A stretch of DNA of 48,472 nucleotides, taken from NCBI GenBank assembly GCA_020722205.1, contig DYLF01000007.1, positions 1 through 48,472 of the forward strand, read 5' to 3'. Position 1 is the first letter of the stretch; each line of letters starts with the position of its first letter. The position numbers were made by a program, and so were the translations under genes. This stretch comes from Desulfobacca acetoxidans. Its GTDB lineage: Bacteria > Desulfobacterota > Desulfobaccia > Desulfobaccales > 0-14-0-80-60-11. Below, in pieces: positions 1,461 through 16,851 of the stretch. The notes under the pieces were generated by a model. The model was not told the origin of the DNA. It saw only the letters and a program-made list of their open reading frames with translations, and searched no databases.

Positions 1461-3308
1461 TTGAACATATGGTGCTTTATGTCACGGTGGAATCCTGAAC
1501 GGCGGTTATTGGATCATCAGCACACCCCCTTCTGGCGGTATAAGCTGGTGGAAGTAGATCAACCCAATCTGATGCGGGAAATCTTCCCTTACTCGGAGGT
1601 GGCCTGCATCGACTTTGATTACAAATTTGTCATGCCCCAACCTCCGGAGCAGATGCTGATCACCGACACCACATTCCGGGATGGCCAGCAGGCCCGGCCA
1701 CCCTATACGGTTCAGCAGATCGTGGATATTTTTGATATGCTGCACCGGCTTTCCGGCCCCCAAGGGGTTATCCGGCAAAGTGAATTCTTCCTCTACAGCG
1801 CTAAAGACAAGGAAGCGGTTCAGCGCTGCCGGGAGCGGGGATACCAATATCCAGAGATTACCGGCTGGATCAGGGCTAAGGCCGAAGATCTTAACCTGGT
1901 GAAGGAGATGGGTCTGCCAGAGACCGGAATCCTGACCTCCGTCTCTGATTATCATATCTTCCTGAAACTGGAATGGAATCGGCGCCGGGCGTTTGAAAAT
2001 TACCTCGCCATTGTTAAGGCTGCCTTGGATCTCGGAATAGTACCCCGCTGCCACTTTGAAGATATCACTCGCGCCGATATTTATGGCTTCTGCATCCCCT
2101 TTGCCATCGAACTCATGAAACTCCGGGAGGAAAGTGGCATCGACGTCAAAATCCGTCTGTGCGACACCATGGGCTACGGCGTGCCCTATCCCGGCGCCGC
2201 CCTGCCTCGCAGTGTCCCCCGGTTGGTGCGGGCCATGATCGAAGAAGCCGGGGTGCCTGGCCACCTCCTGGAGTGGCATGGACACAATGACTTCCACAAA
2301 GTCCTCGTCAACGGCGTAACCGCCTGGCTTTACGGGTGCAGCGCCGTAAATGGCACCCTGCTGGGCTTTGGGGAGCGTACCGGCAATTCGCCCATCGAAG
2401 GGCTCATCATAGAGTACATCTCCCTCCGGGGCCAAACCAACGGCATCGACACTACGGTGATTACCGATATCGCCGAATACTTTGAAAAAGAGTTGCATTA
2501 CCACATACCTCCCAATTATCCCTTTGTAGGGCAAAACTTCAACGCCACCAGCGCCGGCATCCATGCCGATGGGCTCTTGAAAAATGAAGAAATTTACAAC
2601 CCCTTTGACACCAGCCGCATCTTGAAGCGGCCGCCCACCATCTCCATTACCGACAAATCCGGCAAATCCGGCATCGTCCATTGGCTCAATACTCGCCTCA
2701 ACCTTACCGGCGGCAAAATGGTGGACAAAGATCATCCCGGGGTGGGAAAAATCAACAAGAGAATTAAGGAGATGTACGATGCCGGACGCTGCACCGCTAT
2801 CTCCCACGAAGAAATGGAGAGTCTGGCGCGTAAATATCTCCCGGAACTCTTCGTTTCTGAGTTCGACCGCCTGAAAGAGAAGGCCCACAAGCTGGCGGCC
2901 CACTTGGCCGAAGACCTGGCCGCCCGGGAGGAAATCCGCTCCATGGAGCCAGCCTCGCAAGAACCGGTCTTACAGCGGGTGTTGGACCTCAATCCTTTCA
3001 TCCAATTCATGTATGTGGTCAACTTGGAAGGCCGGAAAATCACTCGCAATATCACCCATGTGGTAGACCGTGCCAAATATGAAACCATGAACCCGAACGA
3101 AGACCTCTCTAATCGTCAGTGGTTTATCGAACCCGTCAAGACCGGCAAGGTGTACGTGTCCGACTTTTACACTTCCCGCTTCACCGGCGCCTTGTGCATT
3201 ACCGTGAGTGTGCCGGTGCGGGACGAGGCTGATGATATTCAGGGAGTCTTGGGCATGGACATCCGCTTCGAGGCTTTGGCCAAAATGGAGGCAGACGGAG
3301 AAATTTAA
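1461..3308 (+). CDS. Re-citrate synthase-like DRE-TIM enzyme fused to a C-terminal Cache-type sensor domain
   Basis: The first ~450 residues are a DRE-TIM metallolyase barrel of the isopropylmalate/homocitrate/Re-citrate synthase family. It has the catalytic motif DTTFRDGQQ at residues 69-77 and the metal-binding WHGHND near residue 272. The motif wording (IRQSEFFLYS, TGILTSVSDYHIF, LCDTMGYGVPYPG) resembles the Re-face citrate synthases of anaerobes more than leucine-pathway LeuA. After a charged helical linker (about 455-500), residues ~510-610 look like an extracytoplasmic-type Cache/PDC sensor domain (NRQWF, YVSDFY, CITVSVPV, GVLGMDI), yet no signal peptide or membrane segment is present. 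At 615 residues it is much longer than a LeuA-type catalytic unit. The start is TTG 1461 or, six codons later, ATG 1479; neither has a strong ribosome site. It lies 78 bases before the methylmalonyl-CoA mutase gene on the same strand. The barrel family is certain; citrate synthesis is inferred. Confidence 0.8.
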   Translation: MNIWCFMSRWNPERRLLDHQHTPFWRYKLVEVDQPNLMREIFPYSEVACIDFDYKFVMPQPPEQMLITDTTFRDGQQARPPYTVQQIVDIFDMLHRLSGPQGVIRQSEFFLYSAKDKEAVQRCRERGYQYPEITGWIRAKAEDLNLVKEMGLPETGILTSVSDYHIFLKLEWNRRRAFENYLAIVKAALDLGIVPRCHFEDITRADIYGFCIPFAIELMKLREESGIDVKIRLCDTMGYGVPYPGAALPRSVPRLVRAMIEEAGVPGHLLEWHGHNDFHKVLVNGVTAWLYGCSAVNGTLLGFGERTGNSPIEGLIIEYISLRGQTNGIDTTVITDIAEYFEKELHYHIPPNYPFVGQNFNATSAGIHADGLLKNEEIYNPFDTSRILKRPPTISITDKSGKSGIVHWLNTRLNLTGGKMVDKDHPGVGKINKRIKEMYDAGRCTAISHEEMESLARKYLPELFVSEFDRLKEKAHKLAAHLAEDLAAREEIRSMEPASQEPVLQRVLDLNPFIQFMYVVNLEGRKITRNITHVVDRAKYETMNPNEDLSNRQWFIEPVKTGKVYVSDFYTSRFTGALCITVSVPVRDEADDIQGVLGMDIRFEALAKMEADGEI

Positions 3309-3386: not shown

Positions 3387-5057
3387 ATGGACGATTGGGA
3401 AAAATTAAAAGAGTTAAAGGTCAAATATGACGCTCAGGTAGAAAAAGTGCTGAAAAAATTCCCGGAGCGCCGACCTGAGTTTGTCAACACCTCCGGCATC
3501 CCCATCCACCGGGTGTACACGCCTCTTCAAATGCAGGACTTTGACTACGCCGAAAAGCTGGGTATGCCAGGGCAGTATCCCTTCACCCGAGCGGTGCAGC
3601 CGACAGCCTACCGCGGCCGCTTCTGGACCATGCGCCAATATGCCGGCTTCGGCACCGCGGAGGAAACCAACAAGCGTTATCACTTCCTTTTGAAGTCCGG
3701 ACAGACCGGGCTATCGGTAGCCTTTGATCTGCCCACCCAGATCGGCTACGATTCCGACCACGAACTGGCCCGCGGGGAAGTGGGTAAAGTGGGCGTAGCC
3801 ATTGACTCCCTTTGGGATATGGAACGTCTCTTCGCCGGCATCCCGTTGGACCAGGTAAGCACCTCCATGACCATCAACTCCCCCTGCGCCGTTATTTTGG
3901 CCATGTACCTGGCAGTCGCCGAAAAGCAAGGCGTTCCCTTCAGCCAACTCCGGGGTACGGTGCAGAATGACATCCTAAAAGAATATCCGGCCCGAGGAAC
4001 TTACATCTTCGGACCCCGGCGATCCATGCGCCTCATTACCGACATCTTCGCCTACTGCACCAAAGAGGTGCCTCAGTGGAACACCATCAGCATCAGCGGC
4101 TACCACATCCGGGAGGCCGGCTCCACCGCAGTGCAGGAGGTGGCCTTCACCTTGGCCAATGGCATCGCTTACGTGGAGGCAGCCATCCAGGCGGGCCTGA
4201 AAGTGGACGAGTTCGCTCCCCGATTATCCTTCTTTTTTAATTCTCATAACGACTTTTTGGAGGAGGTGGCCAAATTTCGAGCCGCCCGCCGGCTGTGGGC
4301 CAAGATCATGAAAGAGCGCTTCGGGGCCCAGGACCCCCGCTCTCAGATGCTGCGCTTCCACACCCAAACGGCCGGCTGCACCCTGACCGCCCAGCAGCCC
4401 CTGAACAACATCATGCGGGTAGCCTTTCAGGCCATGGCCGCGGTTCTCGGCGGCACCCAGTCCCTGCATACCAACTCCTTCGACGAAGCCTTGGCTCTGC
4501 CCTCAGAGCAGGCCGTGCAAGTGGCTCTGCGCACCCAACAGGTCATTGCCTATGAAACCGCCGTCTGTGACACAGTTGACCCCTTGGCCGGCTCCTACTA
4601 TATCGAATACCTGACAGACCAGATAGAGGCCAGAGCCCAAGATTACATCGACCAGATCGACCGCCTGGGCGGTGCAGTGGCAGCCATCGAAAAAGGCTTC
4701 ATCCAAAAGGAAATCCAGGACAGCGCCTACCGCTACCAGAGGGAAATCGAAAAAGGCGACCGGATCATCGTGGGACTGAACAAATTCCAGGTGAAGGAGG
4801 AGGCCAAGCCCGCAGACTTGTTGAAAGTGGACCCGGCGGTGGGCGACCGGCAAGTGGCCAGACTAAAGGAACTCAAGGCTACCCGCGATAACTCTGCGGT
4901 GCAAACCGCCCTGGCGGAACTGAAAAGCGCTGCCGAAGGCGATCTCAACCTGATGCCGCCCATCCTCAAAGCGGTCAAATCCTTGGCCACTCTGGGGGAA
5001 ATCTGCGACACCCTGCGTGCCGTCTGGGGTGAATACGAAGCCACGGCATTTGTCTAA
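3387..5057 (+). CDS. Methylmalonyl-CoA mutase, large catalytic subunit
   Basis: This subunit interconverts (R)-methylmalonyl-CoA and succinyl-CoA with adenosylcobalamin, in propionate or succinate metabolism. At 556 residues it has the substrate-binding TIM barrel only; the B12-binding domain is a separate gene downstream, as in archaea and many anaerobes. Family signatures include [15 protein letters not shown] near residue 32, [18 protein letters not shown] near 87, [16 protein letters not shown] near 110, [11 protein letters not shown] near 233 and [15 protein letters not shown] near 328. The [16 protein letters not shown] segment near 360 is typical of the mutase. The start at 3387 fits the usual N-terminus. 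Late cobalamin genes at the other end of the window (47-48 kb) supply part of the cofactor pathway. Confidence 0.95.
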
Positions 5058-5136: not shown

Positions 5137-5192
5137 ATTTCTGCCATGCAAGGAAAAGCTGAATCCTTGGTTTAGCAGTGAGGAGAGGTAAA

Positions 5193-5597
5193 ATGACCGA
5201 AGCCAAAAAAATTCGCGTGCTGGCCGCCAAACCGGGACTGGACGGTCATGACCGGGGTATCAAGGTGATTTGCGCCGCCCTCCGGGACGCCGGCATGGAA
5301 GTGGTCTATACCGGCTTGCGGCAGACCCCCGAGCAGATCGTGGCGGCTGCCGTGCAGGAGGACGTGGACGTCATCGCTATGAGTTGTCTGTCCGGGGCTC
5401 ACAGCTACCTTTTCCCCCGGGTCATGGAAATTCTCAAGGACAAGCAAATCGCCGATATCCTGGTGCTGGGCGGCGGCATCATACCCGATGAGGATCTCCC
5501 GGCCCTGAAGGCCAACGGCATCGCCGAAATTTTCCGACCCGGCACCGATACCAACGATATCGTCAAATTCATTCAAGACCACGTGCGAAGAAACTGA
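5193..5597 (+). CDS. Methylmalonyl-CoA mutase, cobalamin-binding small subunit
   Basis: A 134-residue Rossmann-like B12-binding domain. The base-off/His-on cobalamin motif is DGHDRG at residues 17-22, with His19 as the lower axial ligand. It is followed by the usual [17 protein letters not shown] and [10 protein letters not shown] segments. ATG 5193 is chosen over an in-frame GTG at 5178 because GGAGAGG (5182-5188) sits at the right spacing before the ATG and would fall inside the coding sequence otherwise. It must pair with the large subunit encoded at 3387-5057 to form an active mutase. The 135-base gap between the genes contains a GC-rich hairpin. Confidence 0.95.
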
Positions 5598-6203: not shown

Positions 6204-6995
6204 ATGACCGACATTTTCGCCTCCCTCAGATCTGCCATTCAGACCGCCCGGCGGGGACGGCCGCTGCTCCTTTTATTGGACTATGACGGCACCCTGGTGG
6301 AGATCGCTCCCCGCCCCGAGTTGGCCATACCTTCTCCGGAACTGCTGGCACTGTTGGCCCGCCTGGCGGCTCAGCCTTATCTCAAAGTGATGGTTGTCTC
6401 CGGGCGCCCCCTGGAGGACCTACAACAACTCCTCCCGCTTCCGGGCCTGGATTTCCTGGCCTCCCACGGCGGTGAAGCCTTCATTTCCGGACGGCTTCAC
6501 CCCTTGCCAGTAGCTGCCGCCTACCAGCAGGAACTTACCCGTTGGCGCCAACAGCTGCAGGAAAATCTGCTCCCCTTTCAGGGATGGTGGTTGGAAGACA
6601 AGCCTCTGGGGTTCGCCCTGCATTATCGACAGCTCCCCCCTGAGCAGAAATATGAATTCCTCAACGTACTGGCCAAATGGCAGGAACAGCCTCGACAGGC
6701 GGCAGGCCTTCAGCTACTGCCCGGGAAGAAGGTACTGGAAATACTGCCCCGGGGGGTCAGCAAAGGGGCGGCCATCCAGGAAATATTGCTCTTGCCTGGT
6801 TTTATTGAGTTATTTCCGATATACTTAGGTGATGATTTTACTGACGAAAGCGCCTTCCAGATCCTGGCCCATCGGGGGCTGACCATCAAAGTCGGCCCCC
6901 CCACTGACCAGACGGCGGCTTCCTACTTTCTTCCTGATCCCAATGCAGTCAGACATTTTTTGACCGGGCTGACCTTCCCCCTGGAGGAACTCTAA
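6204..6995 (+). CDS. otsB: Trehalose-6-phosphate phosphatase
   Basis: This enzyme dephosphorylates trehalose-6-phosphate to trehalose. It is a HAD-superfamily enzyme of 263 residues with the nucleophile motif DYDGT (Asp26 and Asp28), motif II MVVSGRPLEDL near residue 63, SHGGE near 87, the Lys-bearing KKVLEILPRGVSKG near 174, and the Mg-binding GDDFTDESAF near 208. It ends with TAA overlapping the next ATG by one base (TAATG), so translation of the DUF5752 gene is probably coupled. The partner synthase OtsA is three genes downstream. Confidence 0.93.
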   Translation: MTDIFASLRSAIQTARRGRPLLLLLDYDGTLVEIAPRPELAIPSPELLALLARLAAQPYLKVMVVSGRPLEDLQQLLPLPGLDFLASHGGEAFISGRLHPLPVAAAYQQELTRWRQQLQENLLPFQGWWLEDKPLGFALHYRQLPPEQKYEFLNVLAKWQEQPRQAAGLQLLPGKKVLEILPRGVSKGAAIQEILLLPGFIELFPIYLGDDFTDESAFQILAHRGLTIKVGPPTDQTAASYFLPDPNAVRHFLTGLTFPLEEL

Positions 6996-7687
6996 TGACT
7001 GAGATCCTGAACCAGATGGCAGCAAACCCCTTCTGGTTCCACGAGTGCTTCCTAATGTCCATGCCCTTGGGCAAGAAGGTGGTGAACCTGCGGGAACTGC
7101 TGGATAACCTGCGGGAGGTGGACGAATCCGTGCTATTCTATCACCTCATTCAATCCCGCTTGCTTCTGGACCAGCCAGCCGCGGAATACCCCAACGACTT
7201 TGCCCTCTGGGCCGCCCACGCCCTGCAGGACACCAGACTGGCCGAAAAGCTTAGCTCCTTTGATCCCTTTGAATATCAGACCCTCGGAGAAGTGCGCCAG
7301 GCGGTGGTGGACATCTTGGAGGAATACCTCTGGGACCTGCCTTTCGTGCCCTGGGCCCGCCCAGGCTTTGAGTTTCACTTCTGCCAAGCTTCGGTGGTGG
7401 TGATGCATTCTTTGATTTCCGCCCACAACTTGAAAGAATTCTGCAGCGCCCTCACCCGGGTAGGACTTGACTCCATCTATTACCATTTCTTTGAAGCACG
7501 CTGGCGCCTGGGCGAGTTGAAAAGCGACGATTTCTCTTTCTGGATCGAAACCAACTTCGACTTGCCGACATTGGTCGAAGATATCCGCAGCATCGACGTT
7601 TATTTTTACACCCTGAAAGAAGTGCGCGCTTCCCTTGTCGGCTTGATCCATCAGCACCTGGGAGAACTCTGTGATCACCCTGAATGA
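6995..7687 (+). CDS. DUF5752-family protein of the trehalose operon
   Basis: A soluble 230-residue protein, mostly helical, rich in aromatic and acidic residues (FWFHECFLMSMPLGKKV near the N-terminus, PFVPWARPGFEFHF near 113). It resembles DUF5752 proteins, which I recall as commonly located beside trehalose or sucrose-type glycosyltransferases. No catalytic motif is evident. It starts on the overlapping TAATG of otsB and overlaps the treT-like gene by 17 bases, so it is translationally embedded in the operon. A structural or regulatory partner of the adjacent glycosyltransferase is plausible but unproven. Confidence 0.7.
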   Translation: MTEILNQMAANPFWFHECFLMSMPLGKKVVNLRELLDNLREVDESVLFYHLIQSRLLLDQPAAEYPNDFALWAAHALQDTRLAEKLSSFDPFEYQTLGEVRQAVVDILEEYLWDLPFVPWARPGFEFHFCQASVVVMHSLISAHNLKEFCSALTRVGLDSIYYHFFEARWRLGELKSDDFSFWIETNFDLPTLVEDIRSIDVYFYTLKEVRASLVGLIHQHLGELCDHPE

Positions 7688-8894
7688 TTACACCCCCATC
7701 GTCGGGGAAGAAGTAGTGAGCCAGCTCTATCGTCTGGCCGAACGCCTTAAAGGCCGCCGCTTTGTCCATATCAACTCCACCGCCGTCGGCGGCGGCGTAG
7801 CGGAAATGCTTGCCCGAGCCATACCGCTCTTGAACCAGCTCGGCCTGGAGACCACCTGGGAGGTCATCATGGGTGACCCTTTTTTCTTCGAGGTTACCAA
7901 GGCCTTCCACAACGGCCTGCAAGGCTTCAGGGTGCAGCTGACCCCCAGCATGCTGGAGCATTACCGCCAAGTTAACCTGGAAAACGCCAAGCGATTTGCC
8001 TGGGAAGCGGATGTGGTGATGGTGCATGACCCCCAACCGGCTAGCTTGATTGAAGTATTGCGCCCCCAAGCCCGGCGCTGGGTCTGGCGCTGCCACGTAG
8101 ATGTCTCCCGCCCCCACCTGCCGGTGTGGCGTTTCCTGCGGAAAATCGTCAGACAATACGACGCCTCCGTCTTTTCCATGCCCCAGTTCGCCCAGAACCT
8201 CCCTCACCCCCAATACCTCATCCACCCCTCAATCGATCCTCTGAGCGAAAAAAACCGGGAGCTGACCGAGAAGGAAATCCAAACAGTCCTTTACCGCCTG
8301 GGGATTGAGAAAGACAAACCCCTGATCCTGCAAATATCTCGCTTTGACTCCTTCAAAAACCCTGTGGGAGTGATCCAGGCCTTTCGCCTGGTGCGCCGTC
8401 ATACTCCTTGCAAACTGGTGCTGGCCGGCGGTGAAGCCACCGACGATCCCGAAGGCCCTGCCATTCTGGCCCAGGTCCAGGAAGCGGCCCACGGCGACCC
8501 CGATATCCAGGTGCTGCTCCTCCCCCCGGATGCACACCACGAGGTTAACGCCCTGCAACGGGCCGCCGACCTCATCGTCCAAAAATCCACCCGTGAAGGC
8601 TTCGGCCTCACCGTCACCGAGGCCATGTGGAAGGGCAAACCGGTCATCGGCGGCGCCGTGGGCGGCATCGTCCTGCAACTCAGAGATTACCATACCGGCT
8701 TTCTGGTGCAGTCCCCTGAGGGCTGCGCCTTCCGCATCCGCTACTTGTTGCACCGCCCGCAACTGGCCCACCGCATGGGTCAGATGGCCCGGGAGTTTGT
8801 CCGCCTGCACTTTCTCATCACCCGCCATCTCCGGGACTATCTCACCCTGTTGATCTTACAGGCCAACCCCGATCGCCGTTTGGTCGAGTTCTAG
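7671..8894 (+). CDS. treT: GT4 glycosyltransferase, TreT-like trehalose synthase
   Basis: TreT makes trehalose in one step from an NDP-glucose and glucose. The 407-residue sequence has a GT-B fold. N-terminal domain: INSTAVGGGVAEML near residue 34, the HDPQPASL loop near 116, and WRCHVDVS near 139. C-terminal domain: LQISRFDSFKNP near 220 and the nucleotide-sugar motif STREGFGLTVTEAMWKGKP near 304. The combination matches TreT rather than generic GT4 enzymes. The start is GTG 7671, preceded by GGAGAA. It overlaps the DUF5752 gene by 17 bases and ends in TAG, 22 bases before otsA. Substrate assignment is by family resemblance and context. Confidence 0.8.
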   Translation: MITLNDYTPIVGEEVVSQLYRLAERLKGRRFVHINSTAVGGGVAEMLARAIPLLNQLGLETTWEVIMGDPFFFEVTKAFHNGLQGFRVQLTPSMLEHYRQVNLENAKRFAWEADVVMVHDPQPASLIEVLRPQARRWVWRCHVDVSRPHLPVWRFLRKIVRQYDASVFSMPQFAQNLPHPQYLIHPSIDPLSEKNRELTEKEIQTVLYRLGIEKDKPLILQISRFDSFKNPVGVIQAFRLVRRHTPCKLVLAGGEATDDPEGPAILAQVQEAAHGDPDIQVLLLPPDAHHEVNALQRAADLIVQKSTREGFGLTVTEAMWKGKPVIGGAVGGIVLQLRDYHTGFLVQSPEGCAFRIRYLLHRPQLAHRMGQMAREFVRLHFLITRHLRDYLTLLILQANPDRRLVEF

Positions 8895-8916
8895 CCAGTT
8901 CGAAAAGGAAGTCACC

Positions 8917-10398
<1,482 letters not shown>

Positions 10399-11889: not shown

Positions 11890-12474
11890 TCAGTTATGCT
11901 GGATTTCGGCCTTCAGGGCCAGAGCCTGGGGATGTTCTGGCTCAAAGAGCAAGATTTTCCCCACCATCTCCAAGGCTTCCTCCACCTGGCCCAGCCTGTG
12001 TCTGACTTCCGCCAGGGCGTAAAGCACCTGGAAATCCAGAAGGTGACGCTCTACGTACTCTTGAAGGCAAGGTAAAACCATTTTCAGCTTCTCCAGGTCC
12101 TCGGCGGCCTCCACTAAACCGAGAAGGGTATCTTTATCCCCGTCATTTAATTCCAGGGCCCGTTGGAAGCACTCCCAAGCCGCCCCGCGGTTCCCCCGGG
12201 CCAGCATCACACCCCCCAAAACGCTCAGGGCCTCATCCGCCTCCGGCTTAAGCTCCAGGGCCCTTAACAGATACGACTCTGCCTTGTCCAGGTGCTCTCC
12301 CCGCACCGCCACCCTGGCCAAACTGATATAAGACCTCGGATTCATAGGTTGCAAATCCAAAGCCTCCGCCAAGTTGAGTTCCGCCGCCCACATATCCCCC
12401 AGGGCGGCATAACATTCCCCCAGCTCCAGACAAATCTCAAACAGCAGATGTTTCTTGCGATACGAGGCAGCCAA
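11890..12474 (-). CDS. Tetratricopeptide-repeat protein at the end of the pseudaminic acid operon
   Basis: A 194-residue protein made of five or so TPR units (for example LGECYAALGDMWAAELNLAEAL, written here in part, and repeats ending ALELKPEADEA and ALELNDGDKD). No signal peptide is visible. The start is TTG 12474: GGAGGT lies 7 bases upstream, whereas the nearby ATG follows the same GGAGGT by no spacer and belongs to the previous gene's frame. The gene overlaps the 3' end of the giant glycosyltransferase by 38 bases. Its repeats resemble the C-terminal TPR block of that enzyme, so it may act as an interaction partner. No enzymatic function is implied. Confidence 0.8.
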   Translation of the reverse strand: MAASYRKKHLLFEICLELGECYAALGDMWAAELNLAEALDLQPMNPRSYISLARVAVRGEHLDKAESYLLRALELKPEADEALSVLGGVMLARGNRGAAWECFQRALELNDGDKDTLLGLVEAAEDLEKLKMVLPCLQEYVERHLLDFQVLYALAEVRHRLGQVEEALEMVGKILLFEPEHPQALALKAEIQHN

Positions 12475-15400
12475 TGGTCATACCTCCTATTATCCCTTCT
12501 CCTCCTGAAAAACCCTGTGCCCTTCCTCCTCGCTCTGGGAGAGAGCTAAGGTGACGGCCATCCTGTCCGGAAGCCTCTGTAGCTTTTAAAATTGCCTTGG
12601 CCTTTTCCAGGTTCTCGACGGCCTCCTTAAGCTTCCCCAGCTTTTTCTGCAGGCGCCCCAGTTCATACGGATACCTCGGCTCCGGCGTGCAACCCACCAG
12701 AAATTGATACATCTGGGCCGCCTCAAAGTACTTGCCCATGGCCCGGTAGGTCTCCGCCAATTCAGCGGTTATCAGATACCGGCGGTTATCATAGGGGTTG
12801 ATGCGCAAGGCCTGACGGTAGCTGTCCACAGCCTGGGGAAAGAGCCCCTGCTTCCTTAAGGTGACCGCCTGTTGCCAAAGCAACGTCACCTGATGGTCCC
12901 GCATAATATAGAGCGGCTTCCCTTGCTCGTCATACTCTATCAGTTCCAAGGAAATCCCGTCTTCTTCATGATAAGTCAGCCAGTCGCTTTGCACCTGCTC
13001 CTGCCATCTGCTCTGAAAATAAAGGGAATTTTCCCTTTCCTTGGCGTGCCGGCCGGGAGTCTTGCTCTCCAAATGATAGACCACACATTCGGGAGTATAA
13101 AAAACCTTGTGCCCCAAGCTTCTCACCTGAAAACACAGATCCACATCTTCAAAACCGTTCTGATAGTGCTCATCAAACCCCCCGGCGGCGAAAAACACGG
13201 ACTTCCTGATCATCATGCAGGCCGCCGTCACCACCTGAAATTCCCGCCCCTTGTTGACTGCCGGATGGCTCTCATGGAAACCCCGATAGATATGGCCCAC
13301 CCGCTTATGGTCATCAAAGGCCACCCCCGCATGTTGAATGGTCTTGTCAGGGTAGAGCAATTTGGCCCCCACAATACCGATGCGCTCATCTTTCTCAAGT
13401 ACCTTGCTCAACCCCTGCAACCACCCGGAGGTTACAATGGTGTCATTATTCAGGAATATCAGATAATCCCCCCTTGCCGCCCGCGCCCCTTGGTTGCAGG
13501 CTTTGGCAAATCCCAGATTGCTGGTGTTGGCCACCAGCCGCACCCGCCTCTCTTTTTCCTCCCGGCGCAGGTAGTCGCTGGAACCGTCCGTGGAGCCGTT
13601 GTCCACCACGATGATCTCCACCCCGGTAAGCTCAGTGTTATTATAAATGCTTTCCAGACATTGGCGGTTCAAATCCAGATGGTTAAACACCGGGATGATG
13701 ATGGAGGTGGTGACTCCCTCTTCCCCTTTACCGATTTGTCCTATCGGTTCCAGTTTGCCCAAGGTTTCAAAGGATTGGCTGCTGCGGCCATCCAAGGACT
13801 CCTCGGGCCGGAACGCCGGGGTCCTCTCTTCCAGCACTTGGCGGTAGTACTCTTCGATATCCTGAGCATCCTCCACTATTGACTTGACCGGTTTGATGCC
13901 GGCCCGCCACTCCTCGATTATCTCCGGCTGCGCAATCACCATTTCCAACTTGGCGGCTAAATCTGCCGGGTCATTGGCGCGAAAAAGCAGCCCGTTACAG
14001 TTGTCCGTAATGATTTCCGGGATACCGGCCACCGCCGCGGCAATCACCGGCACTCCGCCGTGTAGGATCTCCCGAATCACAAAAGGGAAATTCTCCCCCC
14101 GGGATGGCACCACCGCCACATCCGTGCCGACCAGAATCCGGGGCAGATCAGCCGGACTGTAGCCGCCGTGGAAAATCACCCTTTCCCCCGCCCGGTTATT
14201 CGCTTTAACCTTGTCGAAATACCCCTGTTCGACAACGTTGCCGTACACATGCAGCTCAGCTTCCCTAGTGTTTATCTGATTAAAGGCCTCCACCAAGATA
14301 TCCAGGCCCTTGCGATAACAGATGGTTCCCAAATAGGAAAATCTTACCGGTGGCGGTCTGTGCCCCCCTCTTTCCAAGGCCTTGAAAAGATTGGCCCCTT
14401 GCGGCAGGTGCACCATCTTCTGATTGACGAACTGATATCGCTGGAAAAGCTCCATCTGAAACCGGGCCGGAAAGAAAAGCCGATCAAGGAGCTTAACCGC
14501 CCGGTGATTGGTGTAATAACGGTCTGCCAGGTAATAGAAGAATTGGGGTATCTGGTCTTCTGTTATCTCGGTTAAATATTTCATCATACAGTGGACGCAC
14601 TGGTCGATGGTTTCTGGGCCTTCGCACACCATACCGCCGGCTTTCACCAGATGAATCTGGTTGCATAACAGCCAGTAATCATTGGCCGTCATCACTACCG
14701 GAATCTGCATCTCCTTCAGGACTTCCAAAAAAGAGATGGTGAGTCCCATGAGATGTTGCACGTGCACCAGGTCCGGCCGATGCTTCTGCAAATATTGTCG
14801 GAGCACTGGTTTTAGGGCTTCGTTGCGGATGGCGGAATAAATATGCAGCGGCGCCACAAGTTGGGCCACTGCCAGACCCTCGAAATCCCCCTCTTTGATA
14901 ACAAATTCCGGCTCCCCCGGTCTTTTCTGCACCGGCCGGGGGTAGAGTACCCGCACCTGATGCCCTCTGGCCTGCATGGCCAGAGCCAGGTCCCGGGTAT
15001 AAATCTCCGTGCCGGCATAACTATGGGGCAAGAAATTGTGCGCTGCATATAGAAGTTTCAGATCGAATGTTCTGCTTCTCATTTCTGCTCCACGCTGGCC
15101 CCGCCCCCGACATTTAGAGGGTTGCCCGGCCAGCTCCACGATCAAAGACCTCACCCTCTCGCTGGCGCAACCATCATGCCCCTCGTTGATGTCCGGCAAG
15201 GCCTCCTGCTGCTGCCGCCGAACCTCTTCCCGGAGCCCGGCATCAGACAGCAGCTTGTCTAGCACCTCCGGTAGTTTTTCGTCCTCGGCGGCAATGATAA
15301 CCCCGTCTTCCCGGCCAAAGGTCCGAGCCTCTTCGGGAAACAGCGGCAGCGACACCACCGGGCGCTCTAAAATCATGGCCTCCGGGATGACCGATGATTG

Positions 15401-16417
15401 CCCGCTGACTACAATGACATCCGCCGCGCGTATGGCTTCCATTTTATGGGAACGGCAAAGGCGCACCTGCAGACCGTGGTGCTCCGCCAAATAATCCAAG
15501 TAAGCTTGATCCAGCAACGCAATCTGCTGCGGCGGTAGACTCAGGCGCCCCACTTCATTGGGATGAGGACGCACCAACAGTTGCACCCCGCCGCCCATAC
15601 ACCCCACCGCCCGCAGCACTGCCTCATGAATCGCCTGGTAGCGCCGGGCAATAGCCGAAAAGAAGGCCGACGAACCGTCCACATAACTGGTGGTTAACAT
15701 GACCACCGGCCGGTGTGGCTCCAGACCCATCCGGCGTCTGGCCTCCAGACGGTCAATCCGGCTTTCTGCCCGATAAAATTGGTCCCATAAAGGCGCTCCC
15801 GTAAGAAAAATGCGTTCCGCCTGGTTCCCCTGAGATACCAAAAAATTCCGGCTTCGACGCCCATAAGCCGCCAGATACCTGGCATACAGCGTATGCATCT
15901 CCCCCGCCACCCGTCCCCAGCTCGGGCCCAACATGCCGTGAGCCAACTGCAGCGTGGGAATCCCCGTCTCCTTTGCCGCCAGTACCAACGTTCGTTGCGA
16001 GGGGCTGTTGTCGCACCCCAATACTATCAAACGAGGACGGTGCCGGCGCCACAGCGCCTGCCAGGTCTCTATGACGCCGATCTCCATATGGAGTATCTGC
16101 ACCAGTTGATTAATAAAAGAATTACAGATATACCTCAGTAAATCTCCCCTCCGGCCGACAAAGGCCTGGCGCACCTCGGGGGCCAGAAAGGCTTGACCCA
16201 ACTCGGTGGCTAAGCGTTCCATCTCGCCTTTGGCCAACGCCGGGAAATCCTTTGGGGTATAAGACTCCCAGGAGATCAGATACATACCCTCCCGCCGACA
16301 TTCCTCCGCCAAAACCCCGCCGGTCATAATGGGGGTGAAGCCCTCTTCCACCACGGCCCGTATCAGAGGAAGATAATCCGGATTATGAACATCAAAAAAC
16401 AGCAGACAATCCCTCAC
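12437..16417 (-). CDS. 1326-residue triple-domain glycosyltransferase (GT-B/capsule-type + GT4 + GT2) with TPR tail
   Basis: A single uninterrupted frame encodes four blocks. (1) Residues 1-~435: a GT-B-like domain resembling capsule/CDP-glycerol-type transferases, with LQLAHGMLGPSW, LLVRPHPNEV and the VVSGQSSVIPEAMI loop. (2) ~446-880: a GT4 domain starting LLYAAHNFLPHSYAGTE, with YLGTICYRKGLDI and VVPSRGENFPFVIREIL. (3) ~905-1180: a rhamnosyltransferase-like GT2 domain with TTSIIIPVFNH, VVDNGSTDGS, FLNNDTIV and NGFEDVDLCFQV. (4) ~1190-1290: TPR-like repeats. I start at GTG 16417, whose GTGA overlaps the stop of the zinc-ribbon gene; an upstream in-frame ATG at 16480 would overlap that gene by 67 bases. 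An internal ATG at 15082 preceded by GGAG could give a separate GT4-GT2 protein. No membrane segment is visible, so action at the cytoplasmic face is likely. The acceptor is unknown. Confidence 0.85.
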   Translation of the reverse strand: MRDCLLFFDVHNPDYLPLIRAVVEEGFTPIMTGGVLAEECRREGMYLISWESYTPKDFPALAKGEMERLATELGQAFLAPEVRQAFVGRRGDLLRYICNSFINQLVQILHMEIGVIETWQALWRRHRPRLIVLGCDNSPSQRTLVLAAKETGIPTLQLAHGMLGPSWGRVAGEMHTLYARYLAAYGRRSRNFLVSQGNQAERIFLTGAPLWDQFYRAESRIDRLEARRRMGLEPHRPVVMLTTSYVDGSSAFFSAIARRYQAIHEAVLRAVGCMGGGVQLLVRPHPNEVGRLSLPPQQIALLDQAYLDYLAEHHGLQVRLCRSHKMEAIRAADVIVVSGQSSVIPEAMILERPVVSLPLFPEEARTFGREDGVIIAAEDEKLPEVLDKLLSDAGLREEVRRQQQEALPDINEGHDGCASERVRSLIVELAGQPSKCRGRGQRGAEMRSRTFDLKLLYAAHNFLPHSYAGTEIYTRDLALAMQARGHQVRVLYPRPVQKRPGEPEFVIKEGDFEGLAVAQLVAPLHIYSAIRNEALKPVLRQYLQKHRPDLVHVQHLMGLTISFLEVLKEMQIPVVMTANDYWLLCNQIHLVKAGGMVCEGPETIDQCVHCMMKYLTEITEDQIPQFFYYLADRYYTNHRAVKLLDRLFFPARFQMELFQRYQFVNQKMVHLPQGANLFKALERGGHRPPPVRFSYLGTICYRKGLDILVEAFNQINTREAELHVYGNVVEQGYFDKVKANNRAGERVIFHGGYSPADLPRILVGTDVAVVPSRGENFPFVIREILHGGVPVIAAAVAGIPEIITDNCNGLLFRANDPADLAAKLEMVIAQPEIIEEWRAGIKPVKSIVEDAQDIEEYYRQVLEERTPAFRPEESLDGRSSQSFETLGKLEPIGQIGKGEEGVTTSIIIPVFNHLDLNRQCLESIYNNTELTGVEIIVVDNGSTDGSSDYLRREEKERRVRLVANTSNLGFAKACNQGARAARGDYLIFLNNDTIVTSGWLQGLSKVLEKDERIGIVGAKLLYPDKTIQHAGVAFDDHKRVGHIYRGFHESHPAVNKGREFQVVTAACMMIRKSVFFAAGGFDEHYQNGFEDVDLCFQVRSLGHKVFYTPECVVYHLESKTPGRHAKERENSLYFQSRWQEQVQSDWLTYHEEDGISLELIEYDEQGKPLYIMRDHQVTLLWQQAVTLRKQGLFPQAVDSYRQALRINPYDNRRYLITAELAETYRAMGKYFEAAQMYQFLVGCTPEPRYPYELGRLQKKLGKLKEAVENLEKAKAILKATEASGQDGRHLSSLPERGGRAQGFSGGEGIIGGMTIGCLVSQETSAV
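12519..12557. repeat. Degenerate copy of a dispersed CTCTCCC/GGGAGAG repeat inside the glycosyltransferase tail
   Basis: The stretch around TGGGAGAGAGCTAAGGTG matches, with a few changes, TGGGAGAGGGTTAGGGG at 27553-27570. Repeats of this type (CCCTCTCCC...GGGAGAGGG) are scattered in many proteobacterial genomes. Here it encodes the low-complexity last ~35 residues of the giant glycosyltransferase. Confidence 0.4.
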
Positions 16418-16851
16418 GCTTCTTCCCCCCCATCTTTCAGTGTCTGGAGCAGTCCCTGAACGAAAAAGGCGGCCAGCCACCTTTCAGTCGGCTCCCCCAG
16501 ATTGATCCCCCGGTAGCTGAGTACCCGGGGCAACGGTTTCACCTGATGCCAATTCTCCGCCAGCCTAGCCGCTTCCTCTGTCAACCCCGCCATTTCCTGG
16601 TACGAATAGCTCGGGAAAAATCTTACCAACGCCTCCTCTAGGGTTTCCGGCAACACTTCCGACCTTACTCCGCATTGCGGGCAGACGTGACCTCCCACGG
16701 CAATGCCGGCCACCGTGGGCTGATACACTTCAAAGATTTTCCGGCAGCCGCGACAGCGCAGAGTTAAATAAAGCCCCCACACACTACCCCGCAACCCCAC
16801 CACCACCGCGGGCCGGGAGCTATTACTCGAAGCTAAAGGTTTATTAATCAT
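16414..16851 (-). CDS. Zinc-ribbon protein of unknown function in the pseudaminic acid locus
   Basis: I do not recognise this 145-residue protein. It contains two CxxC pairs, LRCRGCRKIF (near residue 32) and HVCPQCGVRSE (near 55), spaced like a zinc ribbon, followed by a helical, Glu/Leu-rich C-terminal half ending LKDGGEEA. No membrane segment or signal peptide is seen. It overlaps the methylase gene upstream by 8 bases and the giant glycosyltransferase downstream by 4 (GTGA), so it is part of the operon. A small accessory or metal-binding subunit for a neighbour is a guess. Confidence 0.7.
   Translation of the reverse strand: MINKPLASSNSSRPAVVVGLRGSVWGLYLTLRCRGCRKIFEVYQPTVAGIAVGGHVCPQCGVRSEVLPETLEEALVRFFPSYSYQEMAGLTEEAARLAENWHQVKPLPRVLSYRGINLGEPTERWLAAFFVQGLLQTLKDGGEEA

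Follow-up and report, generated by a model that had tools for sequence, protein, structure and literature searches.

The open reading frame at positions 1461-3308 on the forward strand of the window, the whole 48,472-nucleotide stretch of Desulfobacca acetoxidans DNA that was analysed, very probably encodes a citrate synthase of the rare Re type that is most likely the sole citrate-making enzyme of the cell; its tail carries a Cache sensor domain, through which an intracellular amino acid or a similar small molecule probably switches its activity. The interpretation that we favor, at a probability of roughly 60%, is that this protein is a Re-citrate synthase and the only citrate synthase of the organism, feeding 2-oxoglutarate and glutamate, that it works in the cytosol, and that ligand binding by the Cache domain alters its activity in a form of amino-acid feedback. 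Specifically, acetyl-CoA and oxaloacetate would be converted to citrate, which would pass through aconitase and isocitrate dehydrogenase (IDH) to 2-oxoglutarate and on to glutamate, with the activity of the first enzyme altered through a domain unrelated to that of LeuA. The effector would be an amino acid acting as a feedback inhibitor, either glutamate, the leading guess since 2-oxoglutarate and glutamate are the end products of the pathway, or an amino acid derived from glutamate. LeuA is regulated by leucine and homocitrate synthase by lysine, and inhibition as the direction of regulation is a guess by analogy. A sequence-only reading of this DNA had proposed an intracellular allosteric sensor of a carboxylate or amino acid; conservation and domain geometry support such a sensor well, while the effector and the regulation, that is ligand binding, the ligand class, feedback inhibition and the contacts between barrel and Cache, are features that we infer.

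The reading frame codes for 615 residues if translation begins at TTG 1461, or 609 if it begins at ATG 1479. The ATG is the likelier start since similarity to many of its relatives begins at residue 6-7, which places the probable gene at 1479-3308 (+). Pfam assigns residues 66-339 (1656-2477, +) to the HMGL-like family (PF00682, E=5e-28, over cut-off), a DRE-TIM metallolyase catalytic barrel, and when the entire protein was modelled with AlphaFold (pLDDT 89), the fold matches were homocitrate and isopropylmalate synthases. The DTTxRDG and HxHND motifs of Re-citrate synthases are both present. For example, the active-site and metal motif DTTFRDGQ lies at residues 69-76 (1665-1688, +), where FRDGQ is invariant and DTT nearly invariant among 76 sequences, and the metal-binding motif HGHND at residues 273-277 (2277-2291, +) is invariant in the same 76. 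Hydropathy gave no membrane anchor in this protein, in line with the sequence-only reading; the highest 19-residue window scores only 1.1 and is located within the barrel.

The tail is a single Cache/PDC domain at residues 502-607 (2964-3281, +), joined to the barrel subdomains by a linker at residues 461-501 (2841-2963, +) that is helical in the models. Two Pfam models exceed their cut-offs here, MCP-like_PDC_1 (PF22673, E=2.7e-15, residues 502-607, 57 bits against a cut-off of 27) and dCache_1 (PF02743, E=1.2e-13, 51.6 bits against 45), and both were also matched by all 35 diverse family members scanned. Among solved structures, a search with the single sequence found the KinD sensor (4jgo, E=1.4e-6), and a search with the family profile found Tlp3 (3.5e-11), KinD (4.4e-10) and PctA (1.5e-6). 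A fold search with the tail modelled on its own (pLDDT 88.5, pTM 0.84) ranked KinD first (E=3.3e-10, TM 0.65) and also matched Tlp3, DctB, PctC, CtaA, Mlp24 and YkuI. With profile scores over cut-off and a Cache fold, the domain belongs to the Cache superfamily, and the two Pfam models, the fold match and the 35 matching members rule out a chance match. Pfam reports no ordinary LeuA regulatory domain in this protein. The sequence-only reading of a barrel with a C-terminal Cache domain, to be abandoned if the tail had no Cache/PDC match or proved to be the LeuA domain, is thus confirmed by Pfam, solved-structure and fold searches; neither refuting outcome occurred. Its estimate that the Cache makes up the last ~100 residues was also correct, and its proposed search interval of 480-615 slightly generous, because the core spans residues ~498-608 and residues ~460-497 form the helical linker.

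Evidence regarding the ligand comes from a putative pocket motif, R552-x-W554-F555 ... Y570-x-S572 ... D600 (3114-3260, +), identified by conservation and by alignment with PctA. Trp554, Ser572, Leu578 and Asp600 occur in all 93 Cache-bearing sequences, Phe555 in 92, Arg552 in 84, and Tyr or Phe at position 570 in 91; the lowest-entropy positions of the Cache include these pocket residues even though overall conservation is lower in this domain than in the barrel. In PctA the corresponding residues are R126 (R552), W128 (W554), Y129 (F555), Y144 (Y570) and D173 (D600). The published amino-acid motif is [YFWL]xxx[RK]xW[YFW](13-17)[YFW](27-34)D, of which the first tyrosine, the Arg and the Trp touch the ligand carboxyl group and the second tyrosine and the Asp touch the amino group (PMC11237719). 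The window protein has the R-x-W-[YFW]...[YFW]...D core at the published spacings, as do 83 of 93 relatives, versus 0.07% of shuffled sequences. The first aromatic or Leu of the motif, 4-5 residues ahead of the Arg, is absent from the window protein, which has E547/D548 there; 12 of the 93 relatives have the aromatic at the five-residue spacing, none has it at the four-residue spacing, and 81 lack it at the published spacing. Because of this missing residue we do not claim strict dCache_1AA membership. Nine of the 93 sequences have the pocket Arg replaced by H, K, S, C or T (L071, L072, L080, L081, L082, L109, L110, L111 and L118); these still retain the Trp, Ser and Asp, and they may bind a different ligand.

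The same pocket must be weighed against the possibility that the Cache of this Re-citrate synthase senses a 2-oxoacid or carboxylate such as pyruvate, acetate, 2-oxoglutarate or citrate, for example in activation by pyruvate. The top structural match, KinD, was solved with pyruvate, its R131 aligns with R552, the YTSR-TG stretch of the window protein is similar to YSSRITG of KinD, and the window protein lacks the leading aromatic of the amino-acid motif. However, Asp600 is present in 93 of 93 sequences and corresponds to D173 of PctA, whereas KinD has Ala at this position, and the matching Asp touches the amino group of the ligand in dCache_1AA domains that bind amino acids (PMC11237719). We consider carboxylate sensing unlikely. 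Overall, the pocket has the look of one for amino acids, altered at its carboxylate end, and not of a simple carboxylate pocket, and the earlier choice of carboxylate or amino acid is narrowed accordingly: an amino acid is favored because the invariant Asp600 is the residue that contacts the amino group in dCache_1AA and the pyruvate sensor KinD lacks it.

The identity of the enzyme was addressed through its own genome and through comparison across genomes. The genome, which is 99.97% complete, contains no Si-citrate synthase (PF00285); aconitase and NADP-isocitrate dehydrogenase are both present over cut-off, each away from the window gene. When 148 Desulfobacterota genomes were compared, 11 had both the family enzyme and Si-citrate synthase, 64 the family enzyme only, 67 Si-citrate synthase only and 6 neither, so that Si-citrate synthase is missing in 64 of 75 carriers and present in 67 of 73 non-carriers. 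The Fisher p of 5e-23 for this near-exclusion is overstated because related genomes are not independent and kinship was not corrected for. Against the favored reading, nine genomes hold the family enzyme together with a full-length Si-citrate synthase. Aconitase, IDH, MDH or fumarase is found nearby at 24 of 92 Cache-bearing loci and 5 of 18 Cache-less loci; for example, the row at locus L069 reads enzyme, MDH, aconitase, IDH and fumarase, aconitase and IDH adjoin the relatives in Syntrophorhabdus and Desulfovibrio, MDH with fumarase is close to those at L041 and L084, and IDH to those at L048 and L085.

These observations bear on whether the enzyme could instead be an isopropylmalate, citramalate or homocitrate synthase, as these families provide its best NCBIfam matches. 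All such scores are, however, far under the curated cut-offs (e.g. 143.7 versus 484.75 bits). The homocitrate synthase NifV and LysS equivalogs reach 138.6 of 462.9 and 102.4 of 413.55 bits, and assignment to 2-isopropylmalate synthase LeuA fails on a score below the family cut-off as well as on the lack of the LeuA regulatory domain. Moreover, two further DRE-TIM genes are present in the genome, one of them sharing a contig with a leuC-like gene, Si-citrate synthase is absent, the genome comparison shows mutual exclusion of the two enzymes, and certain relatives adjoin aconitase or IDH, so we regard one of these other synthases as very improbable. The sub-cut-off NCBIfam scores, the absent Si-citrate synthase, the near-exclusion and the aconitase and IDH neighbors together make Re-citrate synthase the clear reading. 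The resemblance of the barrel to Re-citrate synthase that had been noticed in the sequence is thus supported by the DRE-TIM barrel, its motifs and the missing Si-citrate synthase, and we infer the Re stereochemistry.

The fusion of barrel and Cache is old and widespread. When a single genome was scanned for each species, at least 594 stretches were returned, at least 592 of them encoding a relative. Among the best 80 of these at least 592 relatives, which come from Desulfobacterota, Nitrospirota, Omnitrophota, Spirochaetota, Elusimicrobiota, Lentisphaerota, Fibrobacterota and others, nearly all matches extend into the Cache domain, with L052 and L074 ending at contig ends. An isolated or assembly-made fusion is ruled out, as it is present in the genome of the window and at more than 90 other loci. 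Within Desulfobacterota the gene is found in 75 of 148 genomes; 72 of the matches reach the Cache, two end naturally at residue ~464 and one is stopped by a contig end. In the Spirochaetota group 22 of 120 genomes carry it, roughly half of the copies being without the Cache, and two genomes (G162 and G185) each contain one Cache-bearing and one Cache-less copy. A search for further DRE-TIM-Cache fusions, which the sequence-only reading had suggested, yielded many relatives in several phyla; that the fusion is the usual architecture in most carriers over several phyla had not been foreseen.

Cache-less relatives of 433-480 residues occur at L084, L085, L092-L103, L105, L112, L113 and L116, and some of these adjoin MDH, fumarase, aconitase or IDH. 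Their existence indicates that the Cache is a dispensable add-on without which catalysis proceeds, and this dispensability in similar gene settings fits a regulatory module. Separately, relatives on two Deinococcus plasmids (NZ_CP097152.1 and NZ_CP031163.1), annotated as pyruvate carboxyltransferase, are 39-41% identical to the window protein with a match that ends at query residue 452. In all 93 Cache-bearing rows the distance from P461 at the barrel end to W554 of the Cache is 91-96 residues, and among Cache-bearing relatives the identities of barrel and Cache correlate (r=0.76). A barrel tree, built by a quick method and with long branches present, requires five changes in Cache presence, of which supported branches force only one; the Cache is present in all 68 rows of one clade (starred in the tree). 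The fixed linker length and the coevolution with the barrel would equally suit a Cache that is a ligand-free structural or oligomerisation module, similar to sensor domains with empty pockets. Such a module would not call for the strong conservation of the pocket residues relative to most of the domain, and the Cache-less relatives stand alone, and we therefore think this doubtful, rather more so than carboxylate sensing.

Concerning the gene neighborhood, the gene lies between an upstream aspartyl-tRNA synthetase gene that is cut by the window edge (14-1357, +; PF00152 and GAD) and downstream genes for the large chain of methylmalonyl-CoA mutase (3387-5057, +; PF01642, E=2e-235) and its separate B12-binding chain (5178-5597, +; PF02310, E=9e-26). 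Across 85 loci compared (L004-L089), the gene has aspS close by in 36 cases and hisS in 25, which links citrate synthase with tRNA synthetase genes; the mutase large chain is close to it in 4 of 85. Elsewhere in the window, four consecutive genes at 6204-10398 code for a trehalose-phosphatase, a DUF5752 protein, a TreT-like trehalose synthase and a family-20 glycosyltransferase, so that two trehalose routes adjoin, and a conserved unknown protein overlaps the start of the TreT gene. The protein encoded at 12437-16480 is 1347 residues long and combines TPR repeats with two glycosyltransferase domains.

Many strict anaerobes enter glutamate synthesis through Re-citrate synthase, of which CKL_0973 and SYN_02536 are biochemically proven examples. 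The enzymes of Syntrophus aciditrophicus and Clostridium kluyveri likewise have an HMGL-like barrel resembling isopropylmalate and homocitrate synthases and occur where Si-citrate synthase is missing. Kim et al. (2013) reportedly purified SYN_02536 of S. aciditrophicus with a subunit of about 73 kDa, and the Syntrophaceae relatives including the Cache have computed masses of 71.2-71.4 kDa, so that a subunit of about 70 kDa is shared; judged by this agreement in size, the characterised S. aciditrophicus enzyme probably carries the Cache. The C. kluyveri enzyme has about 450 residues, and judged by this length it would be a Cache-less form. Re-citrate synthases fall into at least two distant groups according to a paper on Heliomicrobium, the main text of which contains neither the word 'Cache' nor the word 'domain' (PMC12016533).

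Several known systems share parts of this architecture. LeuA, CimA and homocitrate synthase have the superfamily and the barrel in common with the window protein and offer a parallel in regulation by a pathway product, but LeuA has its own C-terminal regulatory domain where the window protein has a Cache fold and scores far below the family cut-offs. The dCache_1AA sensors (PctA, PctC, Tlp3 and Mlp24) share the Cache fold and the R-x-W-[FY]...[YF]...D pocket, but these are extracytoplasmic receptors with tandem Cache domains, whereas the window protein is a cytosolic enzyme with a single Cache, no transmembrane segment and no first aromatic. KinD, a sporulation kinase whose sensor is the closest solved structure both by fold and by single sequence, is also extracytoplasmic and tandem and lacks an Asp600 equivalent; its R131 is the residue mutated in KinD entries. 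The EAL protein YkuI is a precedent for a soluble protein that carries a Cache/PAS-like domain C-terminally; it is a weak match to the window Cache and a signalling protein, unlike the central metabolic enzyme described here.

The open-licence papers in PubMed Central contain no description that we found of a Cache fused to a citrate-synthase-type barrel. No such paper mentions Cache domains together with isopropylmalate synthase, those that mention them together with citrate synthase look unrelated by their titles and abstracts, cytoplasmic Cache returned unrelated matches only, and nothing was found on the control of Re-citrate synthase. Thus, the enzyme class is known, and the conserved Cache domain on it is so far undescribed and probably regulatory.

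Cache domains are usually treated as extracytoplasmic sensors. We see an even chance that an amino-acid Cache pocket, otherwise almost only extracellular, has long been used in several phyla as an intracellular allosteric feedback domain of Re-citrate synthase that can be lost without loss of catalysis. A built-in sensor would let the control of Re-citrate synthase be studied in one protein, and the natural pairs of Cache-bearing and Cache-less enzymes, even inside one genome as in G162 and G185, are ready-made controls. If true, Cache domains would also act as intracellular allosteric modules of metabolic enzymes.
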